From Candidatus Poribacteria bacterium (lineage in GTDB: Bacteria; Poribacteria; DTPJ01; WJIO01): a stretch of 17,283 bases of DNA. Positions 517 through 17,283 of the stretch are shown here, piece after piece. The notes under the pieces were generated by a model, which made no database searches, was not told where the DNA came from, and was given only the letters and a program-made list of their open reading frames with translations. Location of the stretch: positions 1 through 17,283 of the forward strand of contig WJIO01000444.1 in the NCBI GenBank assembly GCA_014730235.1, written 5' to 3'. Position numbers and translations under genes: made by a program. How positions within the stretch are numbered: position 1 is the stretch's first letter; every line of letters begins with the position of its first letter.

Positions 517-611
517 TGGCGAGGGAAGGTGGGAGTCGAACCCACCAGGGATGGTAACCACCCCTAACTGGATTTGAAGTCCAGCAGAGCCACCGGACCC
601 TATCTTCCCTC
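517..611 (-). tRNA. selC: tRNA-Sec (UCA anticodon), selC
   Basis: This 95-base minus-strand gene folds as a bacterial selenocysteine tRNA. It has an 8-bp acceptor stem (GAGGGAAG with CTTCCCTC), a 6-bp D stem with a CGGT loop, and the anticodon stem CTGGA/TCCAG around a CTTCAAA loop. The anticodon UCA (plus-strand 575-577) reads UGA. An 8-bp variable arm (AGGGGTGG/CCATCCCT) has a three-base loop, and the T arm is GTGGG/CCCAC. The 3' G-CCA is encoded (517-520). The extended acceptor and D stems and the long variable arm separate tRNA-Sec from tRNA-Ser and from UGA suppressors. It lies 19 bases downstream of the polyol dehydrogenase gene on the same strand with no terminator between, so it may be processed from that transcript. 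Its 3' end faces the integrase, marking it as the likely integration target. It implies selA, selB and selD elsewhere in the genome. Confidence 0.96.
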
Positions 612-5751: not shown

Positions 5752-6954
5752 TTAGCTTGATGATTTCATGGGAAATGAATTCATCCATGATTCCTGTATA
5801 TATATTCTACCACTTTGAGTAACAAGGCTTATAGATGCACCAGGATTTTTTAGAATTCCGTGAACCTTACTTTCGGATCTCTCCAGAAGTCTTTGCCAGG
5901 GCAGTATAACAGGGGCAATTTTTCCACCTTTTGTGGCTTCCATAAGAAGTTCACATTCCAGATCACCGTTAGTTAGAAGGTTAATATCACCTTTATCATT
6001 TTCGCACCTGAAACGTCCACTTTTTACCGAGTCAAGATTCAGGGATATGTCACCTTCTGTAGTCTTAAGCGTCACGTCTTTTGAAACTATATCCCGGACT
6101 TTTGTATTACCCCTGATAGCGTTTATGTATATAGAACCTTCCACGTCAGAGATTCTTATATCTCCACCATTAACCCGGGCTTTAATATTACCTTTCATAT
6201 GTTCACAACCCAGATCGCCGCTTTGGCAATGCAGATCAACTTCACTTTCAATATTGCTTAACCACATATCACCGGGTTTTGCGCTGGCCTGGATATTTGT
6301 TATAACCTTTGGAACCCAGACCTGCAATTGACCTGTAGAGCTGGCAATCCTTGTGGTGTTTTCATCCTGACCTACTCTTATATCGAATACAGCGCCATCT
6401 ATTTTGAGTCCAGGTTTTTCCCAACCTCTTATAAATAAGTCCCCCTGAAAATTCACTATATACAAAGCGCTTCCTTCAGCGACTTCAATGGAATGGCTTA
6501 CATATATAGGATACTCGAAATTCTGCCACATCCATTTCCAGTTGCTATCTTCCCAGGGCCACTGCCATGACATTGGTCTTCCTTCTGCTAAACCAATCAT
6601 CATATCAGGCTGCCAATCTTTCAACCTTTCTGCCAGAGCCATTTTTCGCTCTCGCCGCGTGGGTACACCTTCATCTGTAAAGTCATCTGTTTCTGGAAAT
6701 TCTATATTTTTAATGCTATCCTGTGCTCTTGGAACAGGTGCTAAAGATTCTTCTTCTTCAACTTCCTCATCTCTTTCATCATTAAGCCCTATAAGAATCT
6801 CTTCCAGATCACTATCATCTTCTTCTTCGGTAACCTTTCGGAGAACTTCTTCAGCTTCTTCTATTGATAACTCACCGCGTTCTACGCGTTCGAGTATTGA
6901 AAGTCGATCCTCTTCTTTATATTCTTCAGAATTCTTTTCATTATTCTGGTTCAT
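5752..6954 (-). CDS. DUF4097-type beta-repeat protein, acidic and Trp-rich
   Basis: A 400-residue protein with no signal peptide. Residues 14-41 form a short helical segment (DRLSILERVERGELSIEEAE) like the N-terminal domain in YvlB/LiaX-type proteins of Firmicutes. It is followed by a very acidic linker (about 42-97). An unusual Trp cluster lies at 130-143 (W130, 132, 134, 139, 141, 143). From about 150 onward come short beta strands with G-D-I-x-hydrophobic turns (for example GDLFIRGWEK, GDIRISDVEGSIYI, GDISLNLDS, GDINLL), the DUF4097 putative-adhesin beta-helix pattern. LiaX in enterococci senses cell-envelope stress; a similar envelope role is inferred. ATG at 6952-6954 has GGAGG 10 bases upstream. 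It is the second gene of an operon, 46 bases after its paralogue. What the Trp patch binds is unknown. Confidence 0.78.
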   Translation of the reverse strand: MNQNNEKNSEEYKEEDRLSILERVERGELSIEEAEEVLRKVTEEEDDSDLEEILIGLNDERDEEVEEEESLAPVPRAQDSIKNIEFPETDDFTDEGVPTRRERKMALAERLKDWQPDMMIGLAEGRPMSWQWPWEDSNWKWMWQNFEYPIYVSHSIEVAEGSALYIVNFQGDLFIRGWEKPGLKIDGAVFDIRVGQDENTTRIASSTGQLQVWVPKVITNIQASAKPGDMWLSNIESEVDLHCQSGDLGCEHMKGNIKARVNGGDIRISDVEGSIYINAIRGNTKVRDIVSKDVTLKTTEGDISLNLDSVKSGRFRCENDKGDINLLTNGDLECELLMEATKGGKIAPVILPWQRLLERSESKVHGILKNPGASISLVTQSGRIYIQESWMNSFPMKSSS

Positions 6955-7000
6955 GCCAATTTTTCCTCCATAATATCCAGATTTATAACTAACCTTTTTA

Positions 7001-8443
7001 TTAATTAATATCCAATAATTTCAGAAGCCTTATTTCACCATTTGGTGCGTTCAGATTGATTGTTGACTTTCCGCCATTCATTACCCCACTTATGTTTTCT
7101 CTATCCGTTTCCATGATTTTTATGGGTAATTCAACTTTCGTGCTTTCAGGAAGAGCGTGGGTTGAAACCTGACAAGAAGCATCCGGGGACATTTTAACAG
7201 TAACGTTGCCTTTAATTACATTAATTCTTGCTTCCGCATCGGTTAATAATTTCTCCATATCCAATTTAACATCACCATTCTCCAAGTTAATTTTTATATC
7301 CTCAAAGGTTCTTCGACTTAAATTAATATTACCTGAAACAATATCCAGCCGGATCTTGCCCATACCACCAAAAGACAGGTTTTTACCTGATACAGAGACA
7401 TTTCCTTCCCTGGATTTTATATTCAGATCGGCATAACAATCCTGTATAAAAATATCCCCGGAATCAGATTGAATATTTATTTCGGCATCGCCAGTTTTTC
7501 TCAGACAAATCTCAGATTTATGCGATTCAATTCTTAATTTACCTGAAAATTCTTCTATTTCAATATTGCCTTCATGAGCTTTTACACTTATATCATCACC
7601 TACATCCGTAAGTGTAATATTATTCCCTGCCTGTATATCCATTTCCGTATTTCTGCATTTCGCTACCTGTATATTTCCCGTTCCGCTTTTTGCCTTTATT
7701 GGTATATTTAGACCCATTAACGAAACATCACCTGTATCTGTCTGTATATCAGCAAGTAATATATCCGACTTATTTTGTTTAATATCCTGATATATATAGT
7801 CTTCTTCCTGTAATTTGGTAAAAATGTCTCCGGTTTTAGAACGCAGGAAAAGTGAATTTGAACAATCTTCTATAAATATATTTCCCTTACTGGTAGTAGC
7901 TTTGACAATTTCATTTGATTTCCTGATTTCTACATTTCCGGAACTGCTGTATACAGCCACTTCTCCAGGGCAAGAATCTATATCAACTATCCCTGTTCCA
8001 CTGAAAAGAGTAACTTTGGCAATTGAATCGGGAATATACAATAAAATGTCATTATATCCGGAGAATTTTAGTTGATTTTCTTTCCTTTTTATAGCTAAGG
8101 AGTTAACACCTCCTTCGCTTTTTGCGTAAATATAATCTTTTTCCCAGCCTTGAATAACAATATTACCTGACTTTTGCTCTATAAGTAAATGTGTACCATC
8201 TCTTAGGTCCCTTATTATTTCGATCTGGGGTTCATTGGGTAAATCATCAGTAAATACGACGTCTTTGTTATTATTTTGTTTTTCATCAAATGATTTGACT
8301 AATTGTCTTATTAATTGCTGACCCAGATCAGGATTTCCTTCTTTCTTAAATGAATCAAGCATTTGCAAAATCTTATTTGCCATTTGTGCACTTATCTGTT
8401 TTGCTGCAACCATCTTCATTATCAGGGTGACTTCGTTATCCAT
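7001..8443 (-). CDS. DUF4097-type beta-repeat protein, longer paralogue
   Basis: A 480-residue protein and first gene of the two-gene operon. Residues 1-30 make a helical N-terminal motif (VTLIMKMVAAKQISAQMANK) equivalent to the one in its neighbour, followed by a linker to about 75. The rest is a long series of short strands and Gly-Asp or Gly-Asn turns (SGNIVIQGWEK, SGNVEIR, KGNIFIEDCSNSL, TGDISL-like units, EGNIEIEEFSG, SGDIFIQDC, EGNVSVSG, SGNINLS), as in DUF4097 beta-helices. The unit GNIVIQGWEKDYIYAK matches GDLFIRGWEKPGLKID of the next gene, which supports a duplication. No signal peptide or membrane segment is seen, so it is either cytoplasmic or exported by a route not visible here. 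A ribosome site AGAGG lies 4-5 bases before the ATG at 8441-8443. Function is not established; cell-envelope sensing is inferred from LiaX. Confidence 0.78.
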   Translation of the reverse strand: MDNEVTLIMKMVAAKQISAQMANKILQMLDSFKKEGNPDLGQQLIRQLVKSFDEKQNNNKDVVFTDDLPNEPQIEIIRDLRDGTHLLIEQKSGNIVIQGWEKDYIYAKSEGGVNSLAIKRKENQLKFSGYNDILLYIPDSIAKVTLFSGTGIVDIDSCPGEVAVYSSSGNVEIRKSNEIVKATTSKGNIFIEDCSNSLFLRSKTGDIFTKLQEEDYIYQDIKQNKSDILLADIQTDTGDVSLMGLNIPIKAKSGTGNIQVAKCRNTEMDIQAGNNITLTDVGDDISVKAHEGNIEIEEFSGKLRIESHKSEICLRKTGDAEINIQSDSGDIFIQDCYADLNIKSREGNVSVSGKNLSFGGMGKIRLDIVSGNINLSRRTFEDIKINLENGDVKLDMEKLLTDAEARINVIKGNVTVKMSPDASCQVSTHALPESTKVELPIKIMETDRENISGVMNGGKSTINLNAPNGEIRLLKLLDIN

Positions 8444-11849: not shown

Positions 11850-12263
11850 TTATCGTGTAATAATTTTCACGTTGATGATCTTTTCTTCAATGGCTTCATT
11901 CTCCCATGATCTCTTATAAAGCATTTTTATTTCAGTCTGTCCGGTATTCAGTGCTTTAAACTTAAAACGCTGATGTCCCGGTGCTCCTACTAATTCCGGA
12001 TCATCGTTATCTTTTATAAATTTTTCCTCCAGAAGTTCCAAGTATACAGAATCATACTCAGCTTCCCATTTGTAACCGGTTGTTGGATTTGATTCCAGTG
12101 TAACATAAAAATTTTCCCCTGCTCCAACAACAGTTGTTTGCGATTGATCATCATCTTCATCTTCTGGTAAAACCGTACATCCATGATTACCTAAATTTGA
12201 CGCAATCGTCATAATAGTCAAGGTTATTAAGGCCGATTTATAAATAATGGATCCCCCTCTCAT
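11850..12263 (-). CDS. Chagasin-family (I42) cysteine protease inhibitor-like protein, exported
   Basis: A 137-residue protein whose C-terminal domain (about 44-137) carries the three loops of chagasin-type inhibitors of papain-like cysteine proteases: NPTTGYKW (59-66), GAPGHQRFKFKA (93-104) and YKRSWE (116-121, the family's RPW-type loop). The N terminus has a hydrophobic stretch (about 9-24) and then C29 in GNHGC, which could be a lipoprotein cysteine but does not fit the usual lipobox. An acidic linker (34-39) follows. It should act in the periplasm or at a membrane. AGGAGGT lies 8 bases before the ATG, and the gene follows the CcdA-fusion gene by 18 bases. Inhibition of a particular protease is inferred from the family; no protease gene is seen here. 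Confidence 0.85.
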   Translation of the reverse strand: MRGGSIIYKSALITLTIMTIASNLGNHGCTVLPEDEDDDQSQTTVVGAGENFYVTLESNPTTGYKWEAEYDSVYLELLEEKFIKDNDDPELVGAPGHQRFKFKALNTGQTEIKMLYKRSWENEAIEEKIINVKIITR

Positions 12264-12281: not shown

Positions 12282-14177
12282 TTAAATTAAAGTAGATATT
12301 AAGAACGCACATAAGCCAAAGAAAAGAATACTCGTTAGAAGTTTTAAAAGAGCCAGATGTCTTTGAAAGACCTTTGTTAGAGATGTAAAGCTGGTTCCAA
12401 GGTATGTCAAAATGAATATAACAATAAGGGGAATAATAAACATAAAATTATATAATAACAGATAGAGGATAGCATTTCTCCTGAGTTCTGGCACGCCTAC
12501 TACGAAACATAAAGTCGGAAGATAGACCTGTCCGGTACACGCTAACTCCATCAGTGATACAATAACACCTGCGACAAATGATGCAATGATAAACCTTTTT
12601 GTTCTCATCTTTCCCCGAATGGTCTTGTTTATCCGATCTTTAAGAAAACCGGGGAGTTGAAGGAACATTTTCTGTGATTTTCCGCGTTTTACCATTATAA
12701 AATCGTATAAGCTTAGCACAGCCAATACAAAGGTCAATAAAATAATAATTATATAGAGTATGCGGCTAAAGATAGAAAATACGGAAAGGGTTTGTATAAA
12801 ACTGAAAACTCCCAGGCCAATCAGGAAGTATGTCAGAAAGACCGCGACAGTAAACGCTGTTCCTACATAAATCAGATCTTTTCCCTTGCGCCCTACCAGA
12901 GCCAAATAAGACATAAACATGATGATTGTGGCAAAAGCACATGGATTAACACCATCCAGAAGTCCGGCAACCAAAATCGCAAAAGGCCCCAGGGTTTTGA
13001 ATCTTTCGATCAGGTTATTCCTGGCACTTGAGCGTATTTCTTCTGCATCTTCCCAGGGTTTTGTTGTTCCTATTTCCTGATATTTCTTTACGGTTTCCTT
13101 TAGCTTTTTGTCTGTTATCTCATCCGAATACAAATGCTTCTCTCCGATAAAGACAGCCGGGGCAATAAGTCTTTCTTCTTTCGGAACTTTATAAAGACAA
13201 CAGATCGCCTCAAATAGCTCTATATCCTCTTTTTTCTCTGAATTAAATCTCTTTATTTGTATCTCTGGATATGAACGTTTCAGGCTTTTTAATATATAAT
13301 TTACCCTGTTGCATTCCTTGCATCCGGGTTTCTCAAAATAAGCTATATATATAGTTTTTTCCGATGTTTTTTCTGTTTTTTTCGTATTTATCTCAGCAAT
13401 TCCGGGAAAGTCACATCCACCTTGTTCTGAATATTCAGCAACCAGCTTTCCCAGGTTATTTACAATTTCTTCTTTACCCCCCAGGACATTCCTGCCAATA
13501 AATATAACCGGAATATCGTTACCCTCATCACCGAAATACTCTTCCATGGACACCAGTAAATCGTAATTATCCACATCTTCAACAGATAAGAATTTATAAC
13601 TTAGTTGCTCGGAAAATTTTTCATTGAGAACCGGTATTAATTCATTTTTAACATAAATACAATCATTACAGTCCTCGGAGTAAAACATTATGAAACATAC
13701 TGATCCATCCTCAGTTTTCTGAACTTTGGCATCGGTATGTGAAATAGATTCAGCAGATGGTTTTGTATCCTGAAAATTAGAAACATCTTTGCCTGAGACT
13801 TCTGCTTTTACCCGAATAATTGATCGCGGATTTTCCGGATCATTTGAATCTATATAGATTGTTTTAACTACTTCTCCCAGGCGTTCATCTTCCTTAAATA
13901 CAGCTTTTATATCTGATTCTTCATCCGGCTGTATAGTATCCGACGTTATCTCAACCTTAAGACAGCTACAACTGCTTCGCAGTTGAGTAATAATGAGTTC
14001 TTCAGAACCCTTATTTTTTATCTTGAATACATGCCTTATTTCTTCCCCAAGATCAACTGTTCCAATATCCCAGACCGATTCTGAAATGACAATTTTGGGC
14101 GCATCTAAAGCATATACAAATGTTACAACAAATAAAAGAAACAAACAGATAAAAGCTTTGAGTGATTTAAATTCCAT
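12282..14177 (-). CDS. DUF1573 - thioredoxin - thioredoxin - CcdA membrane fusion protein
   Basis: A 631-residue protein counted from ATG 14175-14177. A signal peptide (1-23, MEFKSLKAFICLFLLFVVTF) is followed by a DUF1573 Ig-like domain (about 28-130) with its C-x-C pair (C70, C72). Next is a thioredoxin-like domain (about 155-255) with SEDCNDC (C170, C173) and cis-Pro region DIPVIF (P223). A second (about 274-370) has KPGCKEC (C286, C289) and IAPAVF (P340). A six-helix CcdA/DsbD-type membrane domain (about 395-631) has its redox cysteines in GVNPCAFA (C413) and ELACTGQ (C547). CcdA-type proteins pass thiol electrons from cytoplasmic thioredoxin to the periplasm, so this protein appears to carry its own periplasmic acceptors. 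A TTG start at 14255 would spoil the signal peptide and has no ribosome site; the chosen ATG also lacks a clear one. It follows the outer-membrane protein gene. Confidence 0.87.
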   Translation of the reverse strand: MEFKSLKAFICLFLLFVVTFVYALDAPKIVISESVWDIGTVDLGEEIRHVFKIKNKGSEELIITQLRSSCSCLKVEITSDTIQPDEESDIKAVFKEDERLGEVVKTIYIDSNDPENPRSIIRVKAEVSGKDVSNFQDTKPSAESISHTDAKVQKTEDGSVCFIMFYSEDCNDCIYVKNELIPVLNEKFSEQLSYKFLSVEDVDNYDLLVSMEEYFGDEGNDIPVIFIGRNVLGGKEEIVNNLGKLVAEYSEQGGCDFPGIAEINTKKTEKTSEKTIYIAYFEKPGCKECNRVNYILKSLKRSYPEIQIKRFNSEKKEDIELFEAICCLYKVPKEERLIAPAVFIGEKHLYSDEITDKKLKETVKKYQEIGTTKPWEDAEEIRSSARNNLIERFKTLGPFAILVAGLLDGVNPCAFATIIMFMSYLALVGRKGKDLIYVGTAFTVAVFLTYFLIGLGVFSFIQTLSVFSIFSRILYIIIILLTFVLAVLSLYDFIMVKRGKSQKMFLQLPGFLKDRINKTIRGKMRTKRFIIASFVAGVIVSLMELACTGQVYLPTLCFVVGVPELRRNAILYLLLYNFMFIIPLIVIFILTYLGTSFTSLTKVFQRHLALLKLLTSILFFGLCAFLISTLI

Positions 14178-14193
14178 AATTGTTTTGATTATA

Positions 14194-14295
14194 GTAATCG
14201 TTAAAAAATGAAAAATGTGTTTAGAAAATACCTTTATAATGATGGTAAATGACAACTAAATTTTAACGATTACATTATAGGTTAAAATTTAGTTG
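14194..14295 (-). promoter_or_regulatory. Leader of the CcdA-fusion gene with two competing hairpins
   Basis: A perfect 15-base inverted repeat (14253-14267 with 14281-14295, 13-base loop) overlaps the last codons of the upstream gene. A different perfect 13-base pairing is possible between 14261-14273 and 14194-14206. The two stems share 14261-14267, so they cannot form together. No T-run follows either stem. An alternative reading is an internal promoter: TATAAT (plus 14274-14279) with TTGGTC (plus 14297-14302) at a 17-base spacing, and another TATAAT at 14188-14193, close enough to the ATG for a near-leaderless transcript. Confidence 0.45.
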
Positions 14296-15778
14296 AGACC
14301 AAAACCGATGTGATATTCGCATTATGATCAAGTTGATTGTTAATTTTGTTTTTATTCCTGACATGCTGGTATTTAAAGCTTACATTGCTTTCATAAGCAA
14401 GGGCATAAATAATTTCTACGTTCAAACTTCGGGTTAGAGTATCAACAGCAGCTATATCGGCTTCTGCATCTCGAGTAGAAGTCTTATGAATATAGCTGGT
14501 TTGTAAGCGCAAATCTCTGAGTAAATCAGCCGTTATACCAACGCTACCTGTTGATAAATTTTCTATAAGGTCAGGGAAATCTTCTATTGTTGATTCCACC
14601 TCATTGAGCCATTTATAGAATATCCATATTGACAGCTTATCCTCTATAATATCATAACTCCATGACAGACGGAAACCATGACTGTTTGATGAATAGGAAA
14701 GGGCGCTGTAAATAGATTTGTATTTCGGGCTTATTCTGATATAAGATAAACTGGTGGTTAGTTTTCGTGGATATTTTAGCAGGGAAGTTATAAGTAGAGC
14801 ATGTCCAGTTATTTCTTCACCTTGGTCTTCTATCCTTTTTTCGAGAAGGCTGGAGTATGCAAAATCTCCCGTCAAAAGCAGGTGTTTTCCCAGGGGAAAA
14901 TTAAAATCAACGCCATATACCTGGTTATCAACCGGGAAATACAATATCCTGGATGGGTTTTCAACAGAATTTTTATCGTCAGTTATGTAAATAGCCTTTA
15001 ATCCTAACCATCGTAAGGATGTACTGGGTTTGTAATATGATTGTAACTTGATGTTAGTTGCATATAGATATTGTTGATAAGTTTCCCTTTCCTGAGCGGT
15101 TTTTGGTCTAGCAAATATGGCAGCTATGTTTAAATTATCCCAAAAATTTAAATCCATCCGACTGCCTTCAAATGTAAAATCAGGCCCCAACTCCTCCAGA
15201 CTTTCGGCTGTTATAGCGCCGCCTTCTGAAGGACAAACGGCACATCTGCTTGTTCCTCCACCTTCTGGATTATCATCCATATCCCAACGCATGAGTGTTA
15301 AAGGGGTAAAGTGAACGTCGTAATAACCTAAGGTCCAACGAAATCCCCGAAAGTTATATCTTACAAAAACACTTCCAAACTCATTGGAAAATCTTTCCGG
15401 ACCTGTATCAAAAACTACATCATCCTCATTGGAAATCCTCAATATACCACCTGTGGTTAATTTTTCACTGATCCTGGCTTTTAACTCCCATATCATACGA
15501 TGATTAAGTTTCAGGCCTTTTATCAATGGTTCACCGTAAGGACCGACAGGATCAGGTGTATCTGAATGATTGGTATTTCTAATTCGTATCTTTGTATATC
15601 CGTTTATACCGATCCTTGAAAATTCATCCGCCTGTGATTCTATAGTTTCTAAAATAGAATCAATCTCTGACAAAAGCTCTTCATTTGTCAATTCAGCCGA
15701 AACAAAAGAAGTTATAGAAAAAGAAAAACATATACATAACAGGAAAATTGTCTTTCTGGATATACTACATATTTTCAT
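14282..15778 (-). CDS. Outer-membrane beta-barrel protein (porin-like)
   Basis: A 498-residue secreted protein. A signal peptide (1-28, ending SFVSA) is followed by a short helical segment (about 30-55, ELTNEELLSEIDSILETIES). The rest is amphipathic strands rich in aromatic residues with acidic turns (RFSNEFGSVFVRYNFRGF, FRLSWSYDI, SIWIFYKWL). The chain ends in Phe (VLVSTKF), the usual recognition signal for barrel assembly. One loop holds a C-x-x-C pair (C179-A-V-C182) in a Gly-rich stretch, rare in porins. It shows the organism has an outer membrane. The ATG lies inside the end of the redoxin gene (14-base overlap) with GAGGA upstream, so translation is probably coupled. Pore size and substrate cannot be read from sequence; a structural barrel without a pore is also possible. 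Confidence 0.8.
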   Translation of the reverse strand: MKICSISRKTIFLLCICFSFSITSFVSAELTNEELLSEIDSILETIESQADEFSRIGINGYTKIRIRNTNHSDTPDPVGPYGEPLIKGLKLNHRMIWELKARISEKLTTGGILRISNEDDVVFDTGPERFSNEFGSVFVRYNFRGFRWTLGYYDVHFTPLTLMRWDMDDNPEGGGTSRCAVCPSEGGAITAESLEELGPDFTFEGSRMDLNFWDNLNIAAIFARPKTAQERETYQQYLYATNIKLQSYYKPSTSLRWLGLKAIYITDDKNSVENPSRILYFPVDNQVYGVDFNFPLGKHLLLTGDFAYSSLLEKRIEDQGEEITGHALLITSLLKYPRKLTTSLSYIRISPKYKSIYSALSYSSNSHGFRLSWSYDIIEDKLSIWIFYKWLNEVESTIEDFPDLIENLSTGSVGITADLLRDLRLQTSYIHKTSTRDAEADIAAVDTLTRSLNVEIIYALAYESNVSFKYQHVRNKNKINNQLDHNANITSVLVSTKF

Positions 15779-16745
15779 CCATAGTCCTCAGTTTCTTAAT
15801 TTGTTCTTCAATTTCATCAATTTTCTCTGGAATTTTGTATGATATATATCTTATTATACCTTTTTTATCAATGACAAAAACGCTAAAACAAAGATCTTCA
15901 GCTTTATACAATTTCACAACTTTTTCATCAGCATCAGAAAGAATTGGATATTCCAGTTCCATTTTATTCGCAAAAGATTGAAGCATTTCATTTTTCTTAT
16001 CAAAATTGACGGACAAAAAACCCACATTGATTTTCTTCATTTTTTTATACAACTTTTGGTATTCAACAACAGCATCCAGGGATTCTTTACACTTTATGTT
16101 CCAAAAAATCAGTATAGTTAAATCAGTCTGGGAGAACACTTCTTCTGATTTAATAGTCCTACTACCATCCAAAGTCTTAAGCTTGAAAGAAGGAGCAGAT
16201 TCTTTTACCTTTAGTCTTTCTTTTAGAAGTTTTAAAACAACTTCCTTAATTACATTTGAGACATCAGGTGGATGGTCATAGTTTATATATTGAATTGTTC
16301 CTTTATTGTCTATGATAAAGAAGCTGAAATCATAGGCTTTTGCCTTGTAGCGACTTACAGCAATTTTCCGTTTATCTGAAAGGATGGGAAAAGTTATTCC
16401 CTCTCCTCTGACAAACCTTCTGACTGATGAAAGCTTCTCATCGTCAAAGTTAATAGAATAGACGTTTACATCAAGATTGTTTTCTTTGGAATACTGGTAG
16501 AATTTCTGGCAGTCTGCAACAGCTTTCAGGCAATCGGGACAATAGCTATCCCAAAAAATTAAAACAGTAAGTTTCTTTTCAGAGAAAATATCCCTGGATT
16601 TTACCACTTCATTACCATCCAGAGTCTTCAAAATAAAAGCCGGTGCTTTTTGGAGTATTTCCAGGCTTTCATCAGCAAATGTATTAAAGGAAGTTGGCAT
16701 AAATAATATGAATATGAATGAAATAAATGCAAAATGTTTTATCAT
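15765..16745 (-). CDS. Secreted tandem redoxin (two TlpA/AhpC-TSA-like domains)
   Basis: A 326-residue exported protein with a signal peptide (about 1-24). Two copies of a thioredoxin-like TlpA/redoxin domain follow. Domain 1 (about 32-175) has the active site FWDSYCPDC with C69 and C72. Domain 2 (about 182-322) has FWNIKCKES, with C219 but Ser in place of the second Cys (S222). The copies share obvious blocks (PAF/PSF...LKTLDG, LT-LIFW, INFD/VNFD, PILSD, FIIDNKG/VIDKKG), so an internal duplication made the gene. TlpA-like proteins reduce or exchange thiols in the periplasm; the second domain could bind a partner through one Cys or be catalytically weak. The ATG at 16743-16745 has AAAGGA about 8 bases upstream. 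It lies 16 bases after the lipoyl gene and overlaps the barrel gene by 14 bases. Confidence 0.88.
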   Translation of the reverse strand: MIKHFAFISFIFILFMPTSFNTFADESLEILQKAPAFILKTLDGNEVVKSRDIFSEKKLTVLIFWDSYCPDCLKAVADCQKFYQYSKENNLDVNVYSINFDDEKLSSVRRFVRGEGITFPILSDKRKIAVSRYKAKAYDFSFFIIDNKGTIQYINYDHPPDVSNVIKEVVLKLLKERLKVKESAPSFKLKTLDGSRTIKSEEVFSQTDLTILIFWNIKCKESLDAVVEYQKLYKKMKKINVGFLSVNFDKKNEMLQSFANKMELEYPILSDADEKVVKLYKAEDLCFSVFVIDKKGIIRYISYKIPEKIDEIEEQIKKLRTMDENM

Positions 16746-16761
16746 AATATAATTCCTTTGT

Positions 16762-17130
16762 TTAATCTCTATTGATTATACGTTTAAAGATTTGCCGCAA
16801 ACCTTTTTTCGATTTTTTGTTTTTATAAGAATCTTCATGTTTTTTATCTTTGGAGGATTTTGCCACATCCAGATTTAACTCATCATCGGTTTTTGATATA
16901 TAACCCAGGGAATCGGTCAAATTTACCTTATCACCTTCAGAATAATTTTTCTTTTCAATGACACCTGTATCTGGAGCTTCTATCTCAATGGCAAATTTCT
17001 CTGTTTCCACAACAGCCACTGGATTATATTTTTTTACTATTTCACCTTCTTCAACAAGCCATTCCACCAGTTTAACATTCTTTATACCATCCCCTAATTC
17101 TGGTATCTTTATATCAATTCTTTCTGGCAT
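16762..17130 (-). CDS. Free-standing lipoyl-domain carrier protein
   Basis: A 122-residue cytoplasmic protein. Residues 4-79 form a lipoyl/biotinyl domain with the lipoylation motif VETEKFAIEIEAPDTG, in which K45 is the expected lipoyl lysine. The sequence around K45 is the E2 (2-oxo acid dehydrogenase) type and not the A-M-K-M of biotin carriers or the GcvH type. A lysine- and aspartate-rich tail (about 81-122) ends in a basic helix (KKGLRQIFKRIINRD). There is no catalytic acyltransferase domain, so it is a stand-alone carrier and not a whole E2. The ATG at 17128-17130 has an AAGGAG site upstream. It is the first gene of the minus-strand run, 16 bases before the redoxin gene. A role in thiol electron transfer is inferred from the neighbours; the reading of a broken E2 gene is less likely because the stop is clean and the tail is not E2-like. 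Confidence 0.82.
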   Translation of the reverse strand: MPERIDIKIPELGDGIKNVKLVEWLVEEGEIVKKYNPVAVVETEKFAIEIEAPDTGVIEKKNYSEGDKVNLTDSLGYISKTDDELNLDVAKSSKDKKHEDSYKNKKSKKGLRQIFKRIINRD

Positions 17131-17171
17131 TATATCTCCTTGGTCTTGTAATTGTATCCGGATATGTTGTG

Positions 17172-17177
17172 ATTATA
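17172..17177 (-). promoter_or_regulatory. Candidate -10 element for the lipoyl-redoxin gene run
   Basis: TATAAT is read on the minus strand (plus 17172-17177), about 42 bases upstream of the lipoyl gene's ATG. The -35 region at a 17-base spacing (TATATT) is weak. The element lies in the left arm of the edge palindrome, so the right arm carries a mirror copy pointing off the window. Confidence 0.5.
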
Positions 17178-17206
17178 GTTTAGCAGAAATTTCCAATATA
17201 TAAAAT

Positions 17207-17242
17207 AAAAAAAGCGATGTAAATATTTACATCGCTTTTTTT
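17207..17242. terminator. Bidirectional intrinsic terminator core
   Basis: GCGATGTAAAT / ATTTACATCGC (17214-17235) is flanked by seven A on the left and seven T on the right, so it would end transcription in both directions. It would shield the minus-strand operon from genes to the right. Being palindromic, it is also a natural point for assembly to fold back. Confidence 0.7.
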
Positions 17243-17283
17243 ATTTTATATATTGGAAATTTCTGCTAAACTATAATCACAAC

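Follow-up and report, generated by a model that had tools for sequence, protein, structure and literature searches.

The question raised by contig WJIO01000444.1 of a Candidatus Poribacteria bacterium (assembly GCA_014730235.1) is whether four adjoining minus-strand genes, encoding a lipoyl carrier, a secreted redoxin, an exported protein and a multidomain membrane fusion, form one trans-envelope thiol relay, as a sequence-only reading had proposed. The window analysed here is the entire contig of 17,283 nt (C397), which belongs to a metagenome-assembled genome of 5.5 Mb and 92% completeness (G000), and homologues were sought in 97 genomes including G000, that is, in 96 others. With moderate confidence, we regard a reductive periplasmic thiol relay of the CcdA/DsbD kind as the best explanation, with a less certain donor consisting of NADH, lipoamide dehydrogenase (Lpd) and the lipoyl protein. 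The open reading frames and the spacings claimed for them were confirmed: a 16-nt gap between the lipoyl carrier and the redoxin genes, a 14-nt overlap between redoxin and putative barrel, and a 104-nt gap between barrel and fusion (ccdA), which holds when the fusion begins at the ATG at 14177. The four genes are:

12282..14177, minus strand: 631-residue fusion of DUF1573, thioredoxin (Trx), glutaredoxin (Grx) and CcdA-like domains, assigned by Pfam, invariant cysteines and a DsbD profile match
14282..15778, minus strand: exported 498-residue protein, putative outer-membrane beta-barrel, with a signal peptide and a C-terminal Phe
15765..16745, minus strand: secreted tandem TlpA/ResA-like redoxin with two AhpC-TSA domains (Pfam 2e-39)
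16762..17130, minus strand: stand-alone E2-type lipoyl carrier of 122 residues (Biotin_lipoyl, PF00364, 2.2e-15)

A longer reading frame of the fusion starts at a TTG (14255), and the ATG is favoured by the clean signal peptide that follows from it and by agreement with the homologue in the nearest relative, G079. The DUF1573 domain scores 9e-22 with PF07610 (77 bits against a gathering threshold of 26.1) and has CSC (70-72) in its CxC motif; it is followed by a thioredoxin domain with CNDC (170-173) and a glutaredoxin domain (Pfam 5e-6) with CKEC (286-289). Both thioredoxin folds were confirmed by an AF2 model, with pLDDT of about 80-90 in these parts and thioredoxin matches at Z of about 10. 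The membrane part reached a pLDDT of about 50-84. The matches of a structure search with the fusion were filled by thioredoxins; no CcdA structure surfaced among them, which does not count against a CcdA fold. A redox role of DUF1573 is indicated because a selenocysteine (Sec) form of its motif, UGC, has been listed (PMC9312934). Elsewhere in G000 (contig C181, L160:5626-11442) a 1938-residue protein contains about seven DUF1573 repeats.

The membrane domain has one cysteine in each half, Cys413 in NPC and Cys547 in CTGQ, and neither varies among 31 homologues, which come from several phyla. Alignment of the family's membrane profile with E. coli DsbD by hhalign gave an E value of 2e-3, and alignment with four DsbD sequences gave 1.3e-4 at a probability of 54% over 205 columns, a modest score from a single comparison; the two cysteines were in register in each alignment. 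NCBIfam offered nothing useful for this domain, and neither did a search of PDB sequences with the profile by hmmsearch. At the level of sequence, homology of the membrane domain to DsbD can be considered supported.

The secreted tandem redoxin of the sequence-only reading stands as two AhpC-TSA domains, but only the first of them has both the AhpC-TSA/Trx fold and a CxxC motif (CPDC, 69-72), the second having lost its second cysteine (CKES, 219-222). The top NCBIfam match is ResA (NF002854) with 105 bits, which is under the curated cutoff of 170. In contig C750 of G079 a redoxin gene lies directly upstream of the fusion gene, about 40 nt away, and its redoxin domain is 59% identical to domain 1 and 44% identical to domain 2 of the window protein; lipoyl and barrel genes are absent from that locus. 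The full fusion, at 62% identity, was found in G079 alone among the genomes searched, while relatives of its Trx-CcdA portion occur in many others, and their linkages recur in several forms. The window and G079 have DUF1573, with its CxC motif, and Trx-CcdA in one protein; in the phylum of G090, Trx-CcdA carries a fused CxC domain at its N terminus, and in G090 this domain matches DUF1573 at a marginal score; in the phylum of G086, where 12 of 17 genomes have Trx-CcdA, a DUF1573 gene is adjacent in the contigs read, as is also the case in an Omnitrophota contig. Other families of the window's own phylum have Trx-CcdA fused to an UshA-like (seleno)protein domain (NF041198, 121 bits, cutoff 275). 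In a tree the window fusion groups with that of G079, and the UshA-fused proteins of the window's phylum join these two next. These UshA-like fusions (in G047, G029, G004, G051 and others; L066-L073) have GLHGCG near the start.

A candidate target of the redoxin is suggested by the same relative. The organism uses selenocysteine, since the window carries the corresponding tRNA:

517..611, minus strand: tRNA-Sec (79 bits)

In G079 a multihaem cytochrome that contains an in-frame TGA (C750, L062:1327-2703, minus strand; DCG-U-PG) has the redoxin fused to its end, and G000 has a stand-alone multihaem cytochrome (contig C171, L174:848-1717) that is 42% identical to this cytochrome and has a TGA at the corresponding place (FCGG-U-PG). 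In both, the in-frame TGA probably encodes selenocysteine. That the pair is fused in G079 and encoded by separate genes in G000 suggests that the window redoxin serves the C171 cytochrome. A selenocysteine inside the G079 redoxin itself was considered and rejected, the TGA in question being the redoxin's own stop codon and the Sec candidate lying upstream in the fused cytochrome. The family names UshA-like PCGU (NF041198) and ExtKL were likewise unsupported for the full read-through, and this probable seleno-cytochrome has no NCBIfam model.

From these domains, invariant cysteines and linkages we infer the direction of electron flow, the partners and the target. The CcdA-like membrane domain would take thiol electrons from the cytoplasm and pass them to the periplasmic Trx and Grx domains and to the CxC-bearing DUF1573, which would then reduce the secreted redoxin, domain 1 being catalytic and domain 2, with its CKES, monothiol or accessory. 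The redoxin would maintain in the reduced state some periplasmic target with a thiol or selenol, for which the multihaem cytochrome with the probable Sec site is the likeliest candidate. With less certainty, NADH could be the cytoplasmic donor, its electrons passing through Lpd and the stand-alone lipoyl protein, either in place of thioredoxin or in addition to it.

The assignment of the lipoyl carrier itself was borne out by its Pfam match and by a lysine at the beta-turn, the putative lipoyl Lys45, which lies within ETEKF and not MKM. The protein has no signal peptide, it is closer to E2 lipoyl domains (54-58 bits to sucB) and only weakly similar to GcvH, and its C-terminal tail is basic and amphipathic (hydrophobic moment 0.68, against 0.35 +/- 0.17 in shuffles, p about 0.04). 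Two independent and indirect supports make its link to the relay plausible. One is the gene order Lpd, DUF1573, Trx-Trx-CcdA, which is present in five of five genomes of one family of a different phylum (G086 and G109-G112) with short gaps, about 12-94 nt long in those read. With TIGR01350 the G086 Lpd reaches 442 bits (cutoff 409), those of the other four are 60-77% identical to it, and in each of these genomes the operon Lpd is the sole one found. In G090 an Lpd gene lies about 5 kb from the ccdA fusion on the opposite strand, and it was not counted as evidence. The other support is that the window protein is the sole E2-type lipoyl domain detected in G000. This genome has one true Lpd (567 bits), on a contig other than the window's, and a biotin carrier located beside its carboxylase; no E2 was found in the 92% complete genome, and its GcvH reads ESIDG in place of ESVKA, with another residue where the lipoyl lysine should be. 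Hence the window lipoyl protein is the sole detected candidate substrate of the G000 Lpd. GcvH homologues without the lipoyl lysine are encoded at L174:3248-3628 (minus strand) in G000 and at L173:339-788 in G079. In the literature we found no described system that brings together CcdA and either lipoyl proteins or lipoamide dehydrogenase, nor one that links DUF1573 to Lpd.

For the outer-membrane barrel of the sequence-only reading there are a signal peptide and a C-terminal Phe. Neither Pfam nor NCBIfam contained a matching family, and no homologue was found among the 96 other genomes, nor beside the redoxin/ccdA pair of G079. Similarity to Wzi was weak (E 0.1), a periodicity test was not decisive, and a single-sequence AF2 model with a pLDDT of 35 was uninformative and was discarded. 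The mature part has just two cysteines, which together form CAVC (179-182). The name barrel is a guess drawn from the signal peptide, the Phe at the C terminus and the lack of any other distinguishing feature, and the gene is probably accessory or merely co-located.

A repeat between barrel and fusion bears on whether the four genes form one operon:

14253..14295, no strand: perfect 15-bp inverted repeat with a 13-nt loop, overlapping the barrel stop codon (fold z -2.6)

Its loop carries TATAAT on the minus strand, and a competing 13-bp repeat (14194-14206/14261-14273) uses one arm in common with it. Perfect short inverted repeats are frequent between the genes of G000 (in the window and also in L149, L150, L160 and L174), and over about 75 kb 15 of 18 were intergenic, compared with a coding fraction of about 0.77-0.92. 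Since the TATAAT-holding hairpin lies between barrel and ccdA, and such repeats are mostly intergenic, it may mark a transcript boundary, with ccdA possibly transcribed on its own. The single operon of the sequence-only reading is plausible for the lipoyl, redoxin and barrel genes, for which the 16-nt gap and the 14-nt overlap suggest co-transcription and translational coupling, and is in doubt for ccdA.

On both sides of the run the neighbourhood includes further features:

11850..12263, minus strand: I42 chagasin-type peptidase inhibitor (PF09394, 1e-25), 18 nt downstream of ccdA
17166..17283, no strand: perfect 2 x 59-bp palindrome (118 bp) at the contig end, terminator-like hairpin

Nothing at the lower end of the four-gene run indicates an operon end, because the same-strand run continues through the I42 inhibitor, a 150-residue membrane protein and rpiA (gaps of 18, 45 and 30 nt). 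The inhibitor shares the transcription direction of ccdA and is probably unrelated to the relay. The palindrome is centred on a bidirectional terminator-like hairpin and is probably an assembly fold-back; as the contig ends in it, the true upstream neighbour of the lipoyl gene is lost. Farther away, at 5752-8443, two adjacent minus-strand proteins have repetitive DUF4097-like beta sequence, the family being judged by eye.

Several of the results weigh against the favoured explanation. Conservation of the four genes as neighbours in related genomes had been named as a test by the sequence-only reading itself, and among the genomes searched they are not neighbours, nor is the complete set conserved. 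The lipoyl link is backed by the Lpd operons and by the lack of another lipoylatable domain detected in G000, but not by adjacency, since a lipoyl gene adjoining redoxin or ccdA was found only in the window and in none of the relatives searched. GcvH was found in four of the five genomes (none was detectable in G112), and serving it could be all that the operon Lpd does there; the Lpd operon, being limited to one family, may also reflect one evolutionary event. The lipoyl support as a whole is circumstantial, and with G000 at 92% completeness an undetected E2 or GcvH is possible. A single transcript is made less likely by the hairpin ahead of ccdA. The proposed DUF1573-Trx-Trx-CcdA fusion is upheld in its DUF1573, its two thioredoxin folds (the second a glutaredoxin by Pfam) and its DsbD-aligned invariant cysteines, but Pfam models of DsbD and CcdA matched none of the 31 membrane-domain homologues at E up to 0.5, and for this reason the fusion is named CcdA-like and not a member of the Pfam family.

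The alternative that deserves most attention, and to which we give somewhat less than an even chance, is that the same-strand run is fortuitous, the fusion and the redoxin belonging together while lipoyl protein and barrel have their functions elsewhere. This would account for the orphan barrel, for the lack of a lipoyl gene near redoxin or ccdA in any relative, for the I42 inhibitor and rpiA following ccdA in the same direction and for the TATAAT hairpin that separates barrel from ccdA; it accounts less well for the tight spacing of the first three genes, with its suggestion of coupled expression, for the linkage of Lpd to the CcdA family in another phylum and for the fact that the only two cysteines of the barrel make a CxxC. 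We think it unlikely that the system is a System II-like helper of cytochrome c maturation, in which the CcdA-like protein and a ResA-like redoxin would prevent oxidation of the CxxCH cysteines in apocytochromes until haem is attached, with lipoyl protein and barrel as bystanders. ResA is the best NCBIfam match of the redoxin, albeit at a score under the cutoff, and ccdA-ccmG pairs are known in cytochrome maturation (PMC8945050). The redoxin of G079 is indeed joined to a multihaem cytochrome, but to one particular cytochrome that probably contains Sec, which hints at a dedicated substrate, and in relatives the Trx-CcdA family has genomic ties to DUF1573, to UshA-like (seleno)protein domains and to Lpd. 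Moreover, ccs/ccm genes were unrecognised in the neighbourhoods read and CcsA/CcsB were not seen in the window, although no search aimed at CcsA/CcsB was made.

A relay running the whole way, from cytoplasmic lipoyl protein through CcdA and redoxin to the barrel CxxC or a partner and reducing a target at or beyond the outer membrane, appears very improbable. The gene order, the redoxin-barrel overlap and the lone CAVC agree with it, as does, by analogy, the Geobacter extHIJKL cluster, where a barrel occurs together with a rhodanese lipoprotein and a Sec pentahaem cytochrome (PMC6148476); the window's barrel is missing from G079 and from all relatives searched, and its identity as a barrel is a guess, the periodicity test being indecisive and the model uninformative. 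Of the trans-envelope relay first proposed, the inner-membrane and periplasmic part is therefore kept, on its domains, invariant cysteines and recurring linkage in relatives, whereas the outer-membrane step is unsupported, the barrel being an orphan, and is speculation from one CxxC.

The periplasmic relay that we favour resembles known CcdA/DsbD systems in its two membrane cysteines at matching places, its fused periplasmic Trx domains and its ResA/TlpA-type partner redoxin. It differs from them in the missing Pfam match, the N-terminal DUF1573, the two serial periplasmic Trx/Grx domains and the lipoyl/Lpd linkage; known systems of this kind receive NADPH electrons via cytoplasmic thioredoxin. 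The AhpD/AhpC system of mycobacteria and Ohr/OsmC are Lpd- and lipoyl-dependent thiol systems of the cytoplasm, whereas the acceptor in the window would be a membrane thiol conductor. The likeness to such systems is that NADH electrons reach thiol proteins via lipoyl groups, and NADH-fed lipoylated proteins that supply thiol peroxidases are known (PMC8945050). LbpA of the sHdr sulfur-oxidising system (PMC6067878) is likewise a stand-alone lipoyl carrier within a dedicated redox gene cluster, but the window domain is E2-like and the window has no hdr genes. The Geobacter cluster shares a barrel, a sulfur-type protein and a periplasmic multihaem cytochrome with a TGA (PMC6148476); it lacks CcdA and lipoyl proteins, NCBIfam ExtKL is unmatched here, and the barrels are unrelated by any model. 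The core machine is a variant of the CcdA/DsbD kind, and the proposed lipoyl feed would be new.

That Lpd and a dedicated lipoyl protein form the NADH-fed source of a CcdA-type relay reducing a Sec-containing periplasmic multihaem cytochrome is a tentative proposal, which we hold to be doubtful. If true, the lipoyl-fed relay would tie the periplasmic thiol state to NADH and lipoyl metabolism, and stand-alone lipoyl proteins of the window type as well as DUF1573 would gain a role. It would also suggest how periplasmic selenoproteins of the UshA-like, DUF1573 and cytochrome types stay reduced.

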